Source: Neisseria musculi
GTDB lineage: Bacteria > Pseudomonadota > Gammaproteobacteria > Burkholderiales > Neisseriaceae
Assembly (NCBI RefSeq): GCF_014297595.2
Contig: NZ_CP060414.2
Location: forward strand, 1,116,001 to 1,180,000
Direction of reading: 5' to 3'
Length of the DNA: 64,000 nt
Shown here one piece after another: positions 47,775 through 50,608 of the stretch. The number at the start of each line of letters is the position of its first letter. Position 1 is the first letter of the stretch. The translations under genes were made by a program, and so were the position numbers. Below the pieces are notes generated by a model. The model was not told where the DNA came from. It did no database searches and worked only from the letters and a program-made list of their open reading frames with translations.

Positions 47775-48191
47775 TTAAGAAAAGCTGATATTCAAACGCT
47801 TGCCGAGTTTTCCGGCTGCTTTTTCCAAAAAATCGATTTTCGTATTGTGGCGCAAATCAAGCAGGCGGTCAATCTGCGGCATATGTACATCCAAGCGGCG
47901 TGCCATTTCCGCTTTTTTCACGTTTTGGCGCAACATTTCATTCAGCAGCAGCACCTTTGCCGTTTCCAGCGCAGGCAGTTCTACTGTTTGAGAACCATCG
48001 TTTTCAGACGGCAGCGGAATTTCACGGCGGTCTTCAAAATAGCCTTCCAAAGCACAAATCAGGCCGTCAACAGCTTCGATTTTGGCTGATTCTTCGTCTT
48101 CGCCCACTGCCACCGCCTCGGGAATATCGGGAAACGTTACCAACAGCGTGCCGTTGTCGTCGGGGGTCAAAATATAGCGATAAGCCAACAT
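47775..48191 (-). CDS. hicB: HicB antitoxin with C-terminal helix-turn-helix
   Basis: 138 residues. N-terminal HicB/RNase-H-like domain: 'YRYILTPDDNGTLLVTFPDIPEAVAVGEDEESAKIEAVDGLICALEGYFEDRREIP'. C-terminal XRE-type HTH: 'LLNEMLRQNVKKAEMARRLDVHMPQIDRLLDL'. It neutralises HicA and represses the operon through the HTH. Order hicA-hicB, 60 bp apart. Sits between the GemA gene and the peptide/RHH modules. Confidence 0.92.
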   Translation of the reverse strand: MLAYRYILTPDDNGTLLVTFPDIPEAVAVGEDEESAKIEAVDGLICALEGYFEDRREIPLPSENDGSQTVELPALETAKVLLLNEMLRQNVKKAEMARRLDVHMPQIDRLLDLRHNTKIDFLEKAAGKLGKRLNISFS

Positions 48192-48251
48192 GTCATTACC
48201 TTTTGTGAATGATGGATTTGATGATTAACAAGCCCTTTCGGGCTTGCCTTG

Positions 48252-48434
48252 TTATTTGAGACCTAAGTCTTTTTTGATTTTCAAAACCAATCCCGTACCG
48301 ATTTCTTTACTGCCGTGGTTCGGGAAAACCGATGTTTTATTACCTAATCTGATGAGTTGGTGGCTGCCGCGTTTCTGCGTGGTAAACTCTACACCCTGAG
48401 AGAGCAGCCATTTTCGGAACTCGCTGTATTTCAC
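48252..48434 (-). CDS. hicA: HicA mRNA interferase toxin
   Basis: 60 residues: 'YSEFRKWLLSQGVEFTTQKRGSHQLIRLGNKTSVFPNHGSKEIGTGLVLKIKKDLGL'. A dsRBD-like fold with the catalytic His25 in RGSHQ. It cleaves mRNA and tmRNA. The start is GTG at 48434, after AGGAGG. Such modules in a prophage favour its retention or act against other phages. Confidence 0.92.
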   Translation of the reverse strand: MKYSEFRKWLLSQGVEFTTQKRGSHQLIRLGNKTSVFPNHGSKEIGTGLVLKIKKDLGLK

Positions 48435-48491: not shown

Positions 48492-48616
48492 TAAAATTAA
48501 ACATTTTTGTTGTGTTTTGTGGAATCAAAAAGGCCGTCTGAAACAGCGTTGATACTGTTTTCAGACGGCCTTTATTCTTGGGTTTAAAGACTTTGCCGGG
48601 TTCCGGCCCAACCTTG

Positions 48617-48784
48617 CTATTTTTTTACAGCTTCGCGGATTTTATCCTTAACCCATTGGGAAAAATCGATTTTATTTGCATATTCGAGCAAATCTTTTTC
48701 GGTTTCATTGTTGAAGGATACGTTTTTGATTGTCCGCTTGGCCGCTGCCCGTTTTCGATATTCGGCCAGCTTTTCATCAACCAT
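48617..48784 (-). CDS. RHH-like small regulator, module 1
   Basis: 55 residues (MVDEKLAEYRKRAAAKRTIK start). 'TIKNVSFNNETEKDLLEYANKIDFSQWVKDKIREAVKK' is a beta strand plus two helices, as in ribbon-helix-helix DNA-binding proteins. The gene has GGAG 7 bp before the ATG. It follows a 20-residue hydrophobic peptide gene by about 100 bp and has a paralogue at 50107-50274 in the same context; about 60% of residues match. Probably represses its own promoter at the CGTATATACG-type dyad. Confidence 0.75.
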   Translation of the reverse strand: MVDEKLAEYRKRAAAKRTIKNVSFNNETEKDLLEYANKIDFSQWVKDKIREAVKK

Positions 48785-48793
48785 AGGTACTCC

Positions 48794-48870
48794 TTGATTT
48801 TTAAAACGGTTGGCGGTATAGTTTGAGAAAGTTTGGAGGAAGGGGCAGCGGTGTTCTGCCGCCCCTTTTT
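48794..48870 (+). terminator. Plus-strand stem with T-run between peptide 1 and RHH 1
   Basis: GGGGCAGCGG ... GCCGCCCC followed by five Ts (48842-48870) is an intrinsic-terminator shape for plus-strand RNA. TTGATT at 48794-48799 and TATAGT at 48817-48822 with a 17-bp spacer lie just upstream, so a very short antisense RNA is conceivable. The TTGATT part also overlaps the RHH gene ribosome site, so it may be coincidence. Confidence 0.4.
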
Positions 48871-48887
48871 ACTGCAAGTGATTTACA

Positions 48888-48950
48888 TTAGTAAGCTTTT
48901 GCCGAGATTACCAACAAAATCACTAAGATTAGGATTTTAACCACATTCAT
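48888..48950 (-). CDS. 20-residue hydrophobic peptide, module 1
   Basis: MNVVKILILVILLVISAKAY: one membrane-spanning segment with a Lys near each end, preceded by a very strong ribosome site AGGAGGTGATG. The paralogue at 50354-50419 shares the 'ILILVILL...AY' pattern. Size and composition resemble type I toxin peptides (Ldr, Fst, TisB) or small membrane regulators, but no homology is claimed. It has its own promoter (49020-49048). Confidence 0.65.
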   Translation of the reverse strand: MNVVKILILVILLVISAKAY

Positions 48951-48970
48951 CACCTCCTTTCTTTTTCGAT

Positions 48971-48993
48971 TCCCGCCGCCTCCAACGGCGGGT
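48971..48993. terminator. Stem-loop in the leader of peptide 1
   Basis: CCCGCCG-CCTCCAA-CGGCGGG. On the plus strand it is followed by TTTCTTATTT, so it can end plus-strand transcription; on the minus strand it forms a 5' leader hairpin about 25 nt after the promoter and just before the ribosome site. Confidence 0.7.
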
Positions 48994-49019
48994 TTCTTAT
49001 TTCCTAATCCATGAAACGA

Positions 49020-49048
49020 ATTATATTGTGTATAGACATAATAGTCAA
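49020..49048 (-). promoter_or_regulatory. Promoter of peptide/RHH module 1
   Basis: TTGACT (complement 49043-49048), 17-bp spacer, TATAAT (complement 49020-49025). The spacer TTATGTCTATACACA holds a degenerate dyad (TGTcTATAcACA) similar to the perfect ones at 50084-50095 and 50499-50508. Confidence 0.88.
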
Positions 49049-49130
49049 GCATTTCCCCTAAAAAACACGCAAAAAGGCCGTCTGAAACCCCGATAAATCA
49101 AGGTTTCAGACGGCCTTTAAATCATCTAAA

Positions 49131-49295
49131 TCATTCTTCCAGCGATTGCGCGTATTCTGACAGGCAGAGCAGCAGGCAGCCCAGTTGTTCGGACTCTTCT
49201 GATTTCAGTTCGCCGATTTGCAAGAGAGCCGTGCCTAAAAATGCCAAGCCGTGTGCAATGCTGTTGCGTTTAAGTTCCAGTTGTTCGGTATTCAT
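49131..49295 (-). CDS. Small helical protein downstream of antirepressor-like gene
   Basis: 54 residues (MNTEQLELKRNSIAHGLAFL start): entirely helical, ending 'LLLCLSEYAQSLEE'. GGAGGGTTAAGCC precedes the ATG and its start lies 4 bp from the previous stop, so it is cotranscribed with the gene at 49299. No family recognised; could be an anti-regulator partner. Confidence 0.6.
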   Translation of the reverse strand: MNTEQLELKRNSIAHGLAFLGTALLQIGELKSEESEQLGCLLLCLSEYAQSLEE

Positions 49296-49298
49296 GGC

Positions 49299-49952
49299 TT
49301 AACCCTCCAAGCTCAAAGACTGTTGCTGTTGCAGAAACGCCCGTTTTTCCTGCCGCGCCTTGCTGCCCAGTCTGCCCGCGCGGGCGAATTTCGGGTCGGG
49401 GTTGTAGGCGACAATGCCCAAGCGGTCGAGTTCTTTCAGGTGATGGCGCAAAGCGTCTTTGCTGCTGCCCATCAGGCGGGCTTTCTCGTCCCAGTTCAAA
49501 CCCATATTGTGATAACGGGCAAGTCTGGCCATCTCGGGGTTGGCTTTCAGATAGGCTTGTTCCAACAGACCGGCACGCGCCATATTGAATTGCAGTGTTT
49601 CGCGGTCAACGGCGATAAAACCGTCCGGCTCGGCCAGCTTTTCCTTTGCCCATGCACGGAAGGCTTTGGCGTTGGGCGTGTTGGCGAAGAAGCTCAGCAG
49701 GTTGCAGCCGGAATGGGAGAATATGCGGGTTTCGCGCATCTTACCATCAACCGCCATCAATTTGATGGTGGTTGAATCTTTCTCTTGAAATTCATCAAGA
49801 TGGCGGTTGTAGAGATTGTTCACGCCGTCGCGGGCGCGTTTGTCGGAGAAGCCCAAAGCCAAACCGAGCTGTTCGGCGGTCAGCCATTTACCGCCGTTGT
49901 GGTCGATAATGGCAATTTGGGACGGGTTGAATTGTTGGATGGGTGCATTCAT
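49299..49952 (-). CDS. BRO/antirepressor-like DNA-binding protein
   Basis: 217 residues. N-terminal 'AIIDHNGGKWLTAEQLGLALGFSDKRARDGVNNLYNRHLDEF' is the Bro-N/ORF6N-like DNA-binding domain of phage antirepressors; 'RIFSHSGCNLLSFFANTPNAKAFRAWAKEKL' completes it. The C-terminal part has a helix-turn-helix-like 'WDEKARLMGSSKDALRHHLKELDRLGI'. It has its own promoter (50078-50105) with the same operator as the peptide/RHH modules. Likely relieves or modulates repression. Confidence 0.75.
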   Translation of the reverse strand: MNAPIQQFNPSQIAIIDHNGGKWLTAEQLGLALGFSDKRARDGVNNLYNRHLDEFQEKDSTTIKLMAVDGKMRETRIFSHSGCNLLSFFANTPNAKAFRAWAKEKLAEPDGFIAVDRETLQFNMARAGLLEQAYLKANPEMARLARYHNMGLNWDEKARLMGSSKDALRHHLKELDRLGIVAYNPDPKFARAGRLGSKARQEKRAFLQQQQSLSLEG

Positions 49953-50003
49953 GATAGAATGTCCTTTCATTTATGAGAGTAGATGACACGGAAAAGAACG
50001 CTC

Positions 50004-50034
50004 CAACGTTGCTTTTCCACTATTGCCGCCAAGC
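50004..50034. terminator. Leader stem-loop before the antirepressor-like gene
   Basis: TTGCCGCCAAG and CTTGGCGGCAA flank a 6-base loop (about 50024-50051 including tails); TTTC follows on the plus strand. As in the two peptide modules, a strong hairpin lies between the CGTATATACG promoter and the coding sequence. Confidence 0.6.
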
Positions 50035-50077
50035 TCCAACTTGGCGGCAATTTCATTACAGGGTTACTGTGGAATGA

Positions 50078-50105
50078 ATTATAACGTATATACGTTTATT
50101 TGCAA
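50078..50105 (-). promoter_or_regulatory. Antirepressor promoter with 12-bp palindromic operator
   Basis: TTGCAA (50100-50105), 16-bp spacer, TATAAT (complement 50078-50083). The spacer contains a perfect palindrome ACGTATATACGT at 50084-50095. The -35 box ends just after the stop codon of RHH gene 2. Confidence 0.88.
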
Positions 50106-50106
50106 C

Positions 50107-50274
50107 CTATTTTTTTAGCCTTTCTCTAATTATCTCCTTAACCCATTGAGAAAAATCAATTTTATTTGCAAACTCCAGCAAATCATGCTCTGTTTCTGTA
50201 TTAAAAGAAACGTGCTTAAGCATTCGTTTTTTCTCATATTTTTTTCGGGTTTCGGCCAATTTTTCATCAACCAT
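50107..50274 (-). CDS. RHH-like small regulator, module 2
   Basis: 55 residues (MVDEKLAETRKKYEKKRMLK start), then 'HVSFNTETEHDLLEFANKIDFSQWVKEIIRERLKK', the same strand-helix-helix layout as the 48617 paralogue. GGAG is 7 bp before the ATG. An in-frame ATG two codons earlier is too close to the ribosome site. Predicted to bind the CGTATATACG operators in the three neighbouring promoters. Confidence 0.75.
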   Translation of the reverse strand: MVDEKLAETRKKYEKKRMLKHVSFNTETEHDLLEFANKIDFSQWVKEIIRERLKK

Positions 50275-50324
50275 AGGCATACTCCTTGATTTTCAGCACG
50301 TTCTATTTTAAGATTGGGACTAGG

Positions 50325-50348
50325 CGGCGTGCCGGCCGCCTAGCTGGT
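50325..50348. other. Strong stem-loop between peptide 2 and RHH 2
   Basis: CTAGGCGGC-GTGCCG-GCCGCCTAG: 9-bp perfect stem. It occupies the same place as the stem at 48842-48865 in module 1 but has no T-run. It may protect or separate the peptide message from the RHH message. Confidence 0.6.
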
Positions 50349-50353
50349 TAGCC

Positions 50354-50419
50354 CTAGTAAGCGTTACCGCTTACCGTTAACAGGATAACCAAGATGAGAA
50401 TTTGAAGGGTGAGCTTCAT
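50354..50419 (-). CDS. 21-residue hydrophobic peptide, module 2
   Basis: Starts MKLTLQILILVILLTVSG and ends NAY. One hydrophobic segment of about 15 residues, ribosome site GGGAGAAGAAA. Paralogue of the peptide at 48888-48950. Together with the following RHH gene and the operator promoter it forms a repeated unit. Confidence 0.65.
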   Translation of the reverse strand: MKLTLQILILVILLTVSGNAY

Positions 50420-50439
50420 TTTCTTCTCCCAGTAGAGCC

Positions 50440-50458
50440 CCGCTTCGGTGGGGCTTTT
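50440..50458. terminator. Leader stem-loop of peptide 2
   Basis: AGCCCC-GCTTCGG-TGGGGCT followed by TTTCCC on the plus strand. Situated between promoter and peptide gene on the minus strand, equivalent to the stem at 48971-48993. Confidence 0.7.
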
Positions 50459-50490
50459 CCCGTATCGGCCTTGCTGCACCGATGAAATGA

Positions 50491-50519
50491 ATTATAATCG
50501 TATATACGCTAAAGGTCAA
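50491..50519 (-). promoter_or_regulatory. Promoter of peptide/RHH module 2
   Basis: TTGACC (complement 50514-50519), 17-bp spacer, TATAAT (complement 50491-50496), with the palindrome CGTATATACG at 50499-50508 inside the spacer. Flanking bases around the -10 (TATAATTCATTTCA on the minus strand) are shared with the other two promoters. Confidence 0.9.
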
Positions 50520-50608
50520 GCATTTCCCCCAAAAAAACACGCAAAAAGGCCGTCTGAAACCCAAGTTTCAGACGGCCTTTAACCATTGGCAATATCCTTC
50601 AGGCCGCC

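Follow-up and report, generated by a model that had tools for sequence, protein, structure and literature searches.

Type I toxins under the control of LexA are already known (parts of PMC4147584), and so is the logic of the immI region of phage P22, which combines a repressor, an antisense RNA, and an antirepressor (parts of PMC11016777). Here, we analysed a window of 64,000 nucleotides of Neisseria musculi DNA (the whole stretch, positions 1,116,001 to 1,180,000 of contig NZ_CP060414.2), in which two minus-strand units, 48617-49048 (unit 1) and 50107-50519 (unit 2), lie inside a Mu-like Neisseria prophage. Each unit contains, in this order, a promoter, a hairpin, a ribosome site, a hydrophobic frame of 20-21 residues, a GC-rich stem, and a gene for a 55-residue protein that resembles ribbon-helix-helix (RHH) regulators. 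This two-unit layout, with peptides and 55-residue proteins on the minus strand, had been given in a preliminary description of the DNA and is borne out in all its parts. Based on sequence comparison, both units are likely to be Ibs/Sib-like type I toxin-antitoxin modules that encode an autorepressor of their own, and in unit 2 this repressor would be wired to an antirepressor in the manner of P22 immI.

In such a module, the strong promoter would drive the membrane peptide and then the RHH-like protein, and a convergent promoter located where the RHH gene begins would generate an antisense RNA of ~140-170 nt. This RNA is predicted to cover the peptide frame and its ribosome site and to block translation of the peptide, as is known for E. 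coli Sib (parts of PMC4147584). The RHH-like protein would bind the inverted repeat in the spacer between -35 and -10 and shut off the ibs promoter, which we infer from co-variation. In unit 2 and in some of the relatives, the same predicted operator lies in the antirepressor promoter, so that repressor, toxin, and antirepressor would form one circuit. When the repressor is missing or diluted, as on entry into a naive cell or prophage loss, a pulse of toxin mRNA and antirepressor should follow. What carries this reading is the order of the parts, the conservation of the peptide, the antisense signals, the co-variation of operator and regulator, and the second operators at antirepressor genes, all seen in the DNA.

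The regulators were assigned to three families, A (with the window proteins), B, and C. The window proteins are as follows:

48617-48784, minus strand: RHH-like protein 1, 55 residues, predicted autorepressor; PHROG 8400.
50107-50274, minus strand: RHH-like protein 2, 55 residues, predicted autorepressor; PHROG 8400, no Pfam RHH match.

The two proteins are 73% identical, and the DNA of their genes has 78% identity across 107 nt. Their matches to PHROG 8400 had E values of 1.4e-27 and 1.3e-27, and family B matched PHROG 27481 (E 5.4e-15 to 5.7e-32); the function of both is unlisted in PHROGs. Family C matched PHROG 3887, a transcriptional regulator (E 3.7e-29), and RHH_1 was above cut-off in three of the five family C proteins tested (L028, L145, and L147; not L101 and L140; L-numbers are the loci of relatives compared with the window). 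The entries of PHROG 8400, 27481, and 3887 do not include a pairing with a peptide. There was no profile similarity between families A and B. The family A model has three helices and an extended stretch at low confidence (predicted local distance difference test, pLDDT, 70.9), and the family B model (pLDDT 84.6) gave insignificant matches only. The units had been described as missed by usual gene calling, which is only partly right: the 55-residue proteins match PHROG 8400, a relative is annotated in N. yangbaofengii ("hypothetical protein"), and NCBI annotates an Ibs and RHH pair in an E. coli prophage. A peptide lies 73-106 nt upstream of the regulator in 42 of 53 distinct family A and B contexts (30 A, 12 B), and removal of identical stretches left 40 modules, a module being a peptide and regulator unit.

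The evidence for an operator starts from the following features:

49020-49048, minus strand: promoter of unit 1, TTGACT-17-TATAAT; 11/12 consensus bases.
49027-49040, minus strand: predicted RHH operator of unit 1, TATGTCTATACACA; co-variation, no second copy within the window.
50491-50519, minus strand: promoter of unit 2, TTGACC-17-TATAAT; 11/12 consensus bases.
50497-50509, minus strand: predicted RHH operator of unit 2, GCGTATATACGAT, in the promoter spacer; the spacer tracks the RHH protein, and a second copy lies at the antirepressor promoter.
50078-50105, minus strand: antirepressor promoter with the second predicted operator, ACGTATATACGTT (50083-50095); 2/13 mismatches to the unit 2 operator.
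49299-49970, minus strand: antirepressor-type gene (Bro-N) downstream of unit 2; PF02498 37.5 bits, cut-off 25.6; PHROG 5060, anti-repressor Ant, E 1.3e-20.

Arc of phage P22, an RHH protein, has its binding site between -35 and -10. Across 29 family A modules, relatives included, the stretch from -35 to -10 had a palindrome score of 6.21 vs 5.12 in shuffles (sd 0.14; highest of 300, 5.55). Among 27 deduplicated family A modules, which hold 13 regulator motifs and 22 spacers, spacer similarity followed RHH similarity (r 0.71; partial Mantel 0.68 with the ibs core held constant, 0/5000 permutations), whereas its relation to the ibs core was much weaker (r 0.29; 0.13 with RHH held constant, 82/5000). 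The ibs core lies between the spacer and the RHH gene, yet it is the RHH that the spacer tracks. Mean spacer similarity was 0.94 in 18 pairs with the same motif and a different core, and 0.52 in 11 pairs with a different motif and the same core. For example, the peptide MKSYLQILFFLFLILVSGKAY goes with operator TATGTCTATACATA when the motif is TIKN and with ATGTAGCTACAT when it is MTKR, and a peptide starting MKLTLQ goes with CGTATATACG under motif MLKH (the window) and with CGTGCCCACG under VIKK. L046 and L048 have different motifs and nearly identical operators. Correlation was found for all RHH parts (four residues before VSFN, r 0.65; N-terminal, 0.67; C-terminal, 0.60), so contact residues are not singled out. 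The RHH-like protein seems to be exchanged together with the DNA site it recognises among related phages, and the repressor of the preliminary description thereby gains a specific candidate operator in the promoter spacer.

A second copy of the operator was present by the RHH stop in 9 of the 27 modules (L016, L018, L019, L053, L055, L056, L058, L064, and window unit 2); six copies were identical over 13-14 bases and three had 2 mismatches. With up to 2 mismatches, the fixed stretch behind the RHH stop matched the module's own operator in 8/27 cases vs 9/624 for operators of other motifs, the latter including closely similar operator types. The next gene was Bro-N in the window, L016, L018, L055, L058, and L064, and AntA in L053 and L056; that of L019 was judged from the start of its frame only. 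In a Mannheimia phage, the ant gene (P22_AR domains) is divergent, and the intervening stretch holds a 19/21 copy of the ibs spacer. L145, L147, and L144 yielded no second copy. Genome-wide, the 21-base pattern of unit 2 occurs at the antirepressor promoter only; it cannot match the ibs2 promoter because the spacing differs by one base. One further site in the genome differs from the unit 1 operator by a single base; it lies where an unrelated gene starts, and we took it as a chance match. The different operators of the window units suggest that they do not repress each other. A tandem array in L015 and L024 (G007) also has two full peptide and RHH units with different operators; a third RHH-like gene there lacks a peptide, and an AntA-like frame comes after it.

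The second operators at the next gene's promoter (9/27) would also suit an RHH-like protein that is mainly an Arc-like phage regulator of the antirepressor, with the ibs/sib part an often decaying passenger, and so would the altered peptide ends of six loci and the broken frame of L041. However, the unit is also kept in those 18 modules, of 27, for which no second operator was found, and the peptide is under coding selection, so we regard this explanation as rather unlikely.

The predicted antisense RNAs and their signals are as follows:

48794-48822, plus strand: predicted antisense promoter of unit 1, TTGATT-17-TATAGT; 9/12 bases.
48829-49000, plus strand: antisense RNA predicted for unit 1, with predicted ends; placement and signals like those of unit 2, SIB_RNA 17.2 bits, not significant.
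48842-48865, plus strand: 5' stem of the predicted antisense RNA of unit 1 (the internal GC-rich stem); T-run behind it on the plus strand.
48972-49000, plus strand: predicted antisense-RNA terminator of unit 1; CCCGCCGCCTCCAACGGCGGG then TTTCTTATTT.
50286-50314, plus strand: predicted antisense promoter of unit 2, TTGATT-17-TAAGAT; 8/12 bases (below the 9/12 threshold of the window promoter scan), position kept in relatives.
50321-50458, plus strand: Sib-like antisense RNA predicted for unit 2, with predicted ends; SIB_RNA 33.9 bits, gathering score 56; fold z -4.88.
50434-50458, plus strand: predicted antisense-RNA terminator of unit 2 (the leader hairpin on the other strand); stem then T, placed as the E. 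coli Sib end.

The T-runs beside the hairpins upstream of the peptide lie on the plus strand, and a more fitting role for these hairpins is therefore that of antisense RNA terminators. Of 21 distinct upstream stems, 14 had four or more T among the 8 bases that follow on the antisense strand, and 0 of 21 did on the sense strand; window unit 2 counts 3 T because part of its T-run falls within the stem. The match to SIB_RNA (RF00113) spans 50286-50434 on the plus strand (E 4.6e-4 when 3.7 kb were searched, 2.5e-5 with 201 bases). SIB_RNA also matched at E 0.01 in 3 of 16 further loci (L028, L027, and L019) and at E 0.1 in 5 of 9 loci (L145, L123, L126, L147, and the K-12 control L099), L123 being the place of L028. 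A -35/-10 pair occurs on the antisense strand at the RHH start in 40 modules, in one fixed place. Its -35 is TTGATT in family A and in L083-L087 (family B), and TTGCCA or TTGACA in most other family B modules; in L034 the promoter is TTGCCA-17-TATAAA (10/12), L081 has the same letters, and the pair in one L079 copy is weak. The best antisense promoter score averaged 8.8 over 18 sequence clusters vs 6.7 in shuffles. The antisense fold z of -4.88 in unit 2 was obtained on the stretch 50321-50461, and that of unit 1 was -3.03 (cut at 150 nt).

In E. coli, sibC begins 39 nt past the ibsC stop and ends 42 nt past the ibsC start. The predicted offsets are 33 and 39 nt in unit 2 and 59 and about 50 nt, which is longer, in unit 1, so both the peptide frame and the ribosome site lie between the antisense signals, at offsets like those of Sib. 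Transcription of an antisense RNA is predicted from these signals. In unit 1, a terminator-like stem with its T-run on the plus strand stands directly behind the predicted antisense start and might end the RNA early. Near the units of other loci, matches to further phage antisense or small RNA families were seen, C4 and sRNA-Xcc1 above their gathering scores and c4-2, AaHKsRNA82, and isrK below (L144 1535-1618, L126 1757-1813, L101 1087-1173, L079 1240-1322, and L140 2541-2671).

The preliminary description had a leader hairpin and a repressor hold the peptide off. Its toxin-antitoxin-like unit, which pairs a membrane peptide with a small repressor within a phage switch region, is supported by comparison; for the hold on the peptide, a cis-antisense, Sib-like RNA is a better explanation than a sense leader structure. 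The alternative of a signalling unit gained no support, although no analysis was aimed at it. The leader hairpin and the internal GC-rich stem, taken there as sense structures, fit the two ends of such an RNA on the opposite strand. A hold by sense hairpin and repressor with no antisense RNA would agree with hairpins that can form in the predicted sense leaders too (fold z -2.42 in unit 2, -1.64 in unit 1), and its repressor part with the operator co-variation and second operators. But the T-runs and the SIB_RNA match are on the antisense strand, and the antisense promoter-like sites keep one fixed place, which makes it improbable.

The peptides of the window are as follows:

48888-48950, minus strand: Ibs-like peptide of unit 1, MNVVKILILVILLVISAKAY; Ibs_toxin E 0.0016, 18.8 bits, cut-off 27.
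50354-50419, minus strand: Ibs-like peptide of unit 2, MKLTLQILILVILLTVSGNAY; Ibs_toxin E 0.017, 15.5 bits, cut-off 27; coding pattern in relatives.

On both strands of the window, these are the sole two ATG frames of 16-28 residues with a ribosome-site word and at least 8/10 consecutive I, L, V, F, or M; at 9/10, no such frame was found in 10 shuffles of the window or in the regions flanking related viral loci (97,904 bp). Their only Pfam match, in frame, was Ibs_toxin (PF13956), significant yet under the curated cut-off, and we therefore call them Ibs-like and do not file them as curated members. The NCBIfam search of the window gave nothing relevant for the peptide and one unrelated weak match. 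Two other Neisseria peptides reached 25.1 and 23.3 bits with Ibs_toxin (X-padded), and one of the ten queries had no match; E. coli K-12 IbsA, IbsB, and IbsC sequences were taken from the genome record for comparison. When 46 Neisseria genomes were scanned with the Ibs_toxin profile at E 10, 14 had a match, none above the cut-off; such weak matches mean little because a control also gave matches in 11 of 14 unrelated genomes. The six best places (8 of 19 inspected) all adjoin an RHH-type gene, one with a broken peptide frame.

Codon changes in the peptide frame (26 tree edges, 149 substitutions) were synonymous more often than expected (50 vs 34.7, P 0.002), with 56, 27, and 66 changes by codon position. 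No change created or removed a stop (9.9 expected), and hydrophobic class was conserved in a fraction of 0.78 vs 0.57 of peptide changes; these two counts are biased because intact hydrophobic frames were chosen, the synonymous excess less so. By analogy with IbsC, whose AY-type end matters for toxicity (parts of PMC8309996), the peptide may be toxic. Altered C-terminal ends were seen in L016, L020, L061, L064, L068, and L069, and a broken frame in L041; it is possible that the toxin has decayed in these loci with the RHH gene kept open.

The fixed distance of 73-106 nt between peptide and RHH gene, with a stem between them, and the AY or AW end lost in 7 of 40 peptides would fit a leader peptide whose translation controls the RHH gene, rather than a toxin. 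Its likeness to Ibs toxins, the hydrophobic composition kept through change in frames that were chosen for hydrophobicity, and the Ibs/Sib pairs that have no RHH in E. coli argue against this, and we find it very unlikely. RHH antitoxins occur in several type II systems. That the RHH-like protein neutralises the peptide by binding is nevertheless extremely improbable, given that a sufficient antisense unit is predicted, that identical peptides are paired with different RHH proteins, and that E. coli Ibs is controlled without an RHH protein (parts of PMC4147584).

A search for the pair in other Neisseria and Pasteurellaceae, as the preliminary description had proposed, found units in other Neisseriaceae and in Pasteurellaceae phages. 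With the window's own genome (2.93 Mb; protein and genome relatives are Neisseria) counted in, family A was found in 7 of 60 relatives by one sequence and in 12 of 83 genomes of the taxonomic family by profile. It occupies 32 viral loci and 8 genome loci (in N. bergeri, N. polysaccharea, N. gonorrhoeae, N. viridiae, Alysiella crassa, and Bergeriella denitrificans). Five plasmid records matched as well, two of them from Acinetobacter with the match inside a longer annotated protein. Family B was found in 10 of the 83 genomes and 13 viral loci, and class-wide in 1 of 369 genomes, the window's own. In family C, a peptide was present in 14/14 viral loci (several identical) and in the Mannheimia phage, with 6 different peptides, and also in L148, one more locus of this type; L028 has one unit of family C and one of family B in tandem. 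The best phage match of L083-L090 was a Mannheimia phage, over 22% of the query. Against the phage collection, neither the DNA of unit 1 nor families A and B by protein gave a match.

The phage relative L145 links these units to E. coli Ibs/Sib. It passes all three thresholds, with the same order of parts: Ibs_toxin 41.6 bits (cut-off 27, one-X padded), SIB_RNA 110.4 (56), and RHH_1 24.7 (20.5). An annotated Ibs and RHH unit of its kind lies in the E. coli D53-1 prophage. The L145 query matched 5375 of 5426 E. coli genomes, and at least 80% of it in 1 only, a count that would not show units with other RHH types. Promoter scores were 6-7/12 in seven solo E. coli ibs genes, 9 in the D53-1 prophage copy, and 9-12 in the 27 family A modules. 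Spacer palindromes, tried as a divider between solo and prophage copies, gave no clean separation: solo genes scored 3-4 in six cases and 6 in one (n=7), and family C-type phage or prophage copies 3 to 8 (n=8), where the scripted promoter choice was possibly wrong in L148 and L143.

Several points weigh against the reading of the units as Ibs/Sib-like modules with an autorepressor. Eleven of the 53 family A and B contexts have no upstream peptide, 7 of 40 peptides have an ending other than AY or AW, and both window peptides fall short of the PF13956 cut-off (18.8 and 15.5 vs 27 bits). The window proteins of family A have no Pfam RHH match, the family A model had no Foldseek match and none in further fold searches, and no PDB sequence matched the family. 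The 11 family B spacers, relatives included, were no more palindromic than shuffles (5.64 vs 5.70), and 18 of 27 family A modules had no second operator within the DNA examined. Finally, SIB_RNA in the window is under its gathering score of 56 in unit 2 (33.9 bits) and not significant in unit 1 (17.2 bits), and single antisense promoters are weak, with P from 0 up to 0.37.

The genes around both units are on the minus strand, with Gam (PF07352) directly upstream and, further up, putative transposase-like and MuB-like frames. Unit 1 is followed by a HicAB pair (47775-48434; HicA 41.3 bits, HicB-like 27.3 bits). A third unit elsewhere in the genome (L003) has the peptide MQKFLIFAILLLLATNAY and then a different small protein, and a pair much like this HicAB, judged by reading the sequence, adjoins it (L003 495-1146). 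Inverted repeats on GCCGTCTGAA, the Neisseria DNA uptake word, flank the units at 48529-48573, 49073-49118, and 50545-50580, and could serve as terminators and aid unit exchange by transformation. A 54-residue frame after the antirepressor gene (49131-49295) has no Pfam, NCBIfam, or PHROG match; short frames lie 3' of the antirepressor gene in several relatives as well.

The role of the module is the least certain step, and our guess is prophage stabilisation, exclusion of other phages, or tuning of lysis and lysogeny. Tentatively, and with more doubt than confidence, we suggest that Ibs/Sib may have begun as a three-part phage module of toxin, antisense RNA, and RHH repressor, whose operator diversifies like an immunity specificity and which acts in heterotypic exclusion or as a switch of the lysogeny decision, the RHH-less E. 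coli loci being relics. If so, a resident prophage with the same RHH would silence an incoming copy and a different RHH would let toxin and antirepressor fire, and the RHH-less E. coli loci would have lost the repressor along with the strong operator-bearing promoter. Because an E. coli prophage shares this architecture, the purpose of the E. coli ibs/sib loci can be put to the test in a laboratory strain, and the 13 motifs and 22 spacers are a natural regulator-operator series, ready for asking how a 55-residue repressor chooses its site.

In the open-access literature, mostly at title and abstract level, we found no Ibs-RHH pairing, no Ibs in Neisseria, and no co-encoded, swappable repressor on an Ibs/Sib-like module. 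The novelty is the link between parts that are themselves annotated in databases: with it, Ibs/Sib-like type I toxins reach into Neisseriaceae and Pasteurellaceae phages, gain a predicted transcriptional repressor encoded alongside them, and become part of a phage antirepressor circuit. Like E. coli Ibs/Sib, the units have a short hydrophobic peptide ending in AY, a predicted antisense RNA over frame and ribosome site, and a terminator within the 5' untranslated region of the peptide at the same offsets. Unlike the units here, the seven solo E. coli genes (4 loci) examined have no adjacent annotated RHH gene, and their promoters score below those of family A. As in P22 immI (parts of PMC11016777), a small repressor, a predicted antisense RNA, and an antirepressor share one region, and the Mannheimia phage module adjoins a P22-type antirepressor. 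An antirepressor under the small repressor is predicted for unit 2 (Bro-N with the second operator) and not for unit 1, where HicAB is next. Since a toxin is present here and the predicted RNA lies opposite its peptide, not opposite ant, the module would work like P22 immI without being a member of it. In TisB/IstR-1, DinQ/AgrB, and SymE/SymR, too, a transcriptional repressor and an antisense RNA both act on a type I toxin (parts of PMC4147584), but their repressor is the host LexA, whereas the predicted repressor here is co-encoded, diverse, and exchanged with its operator.

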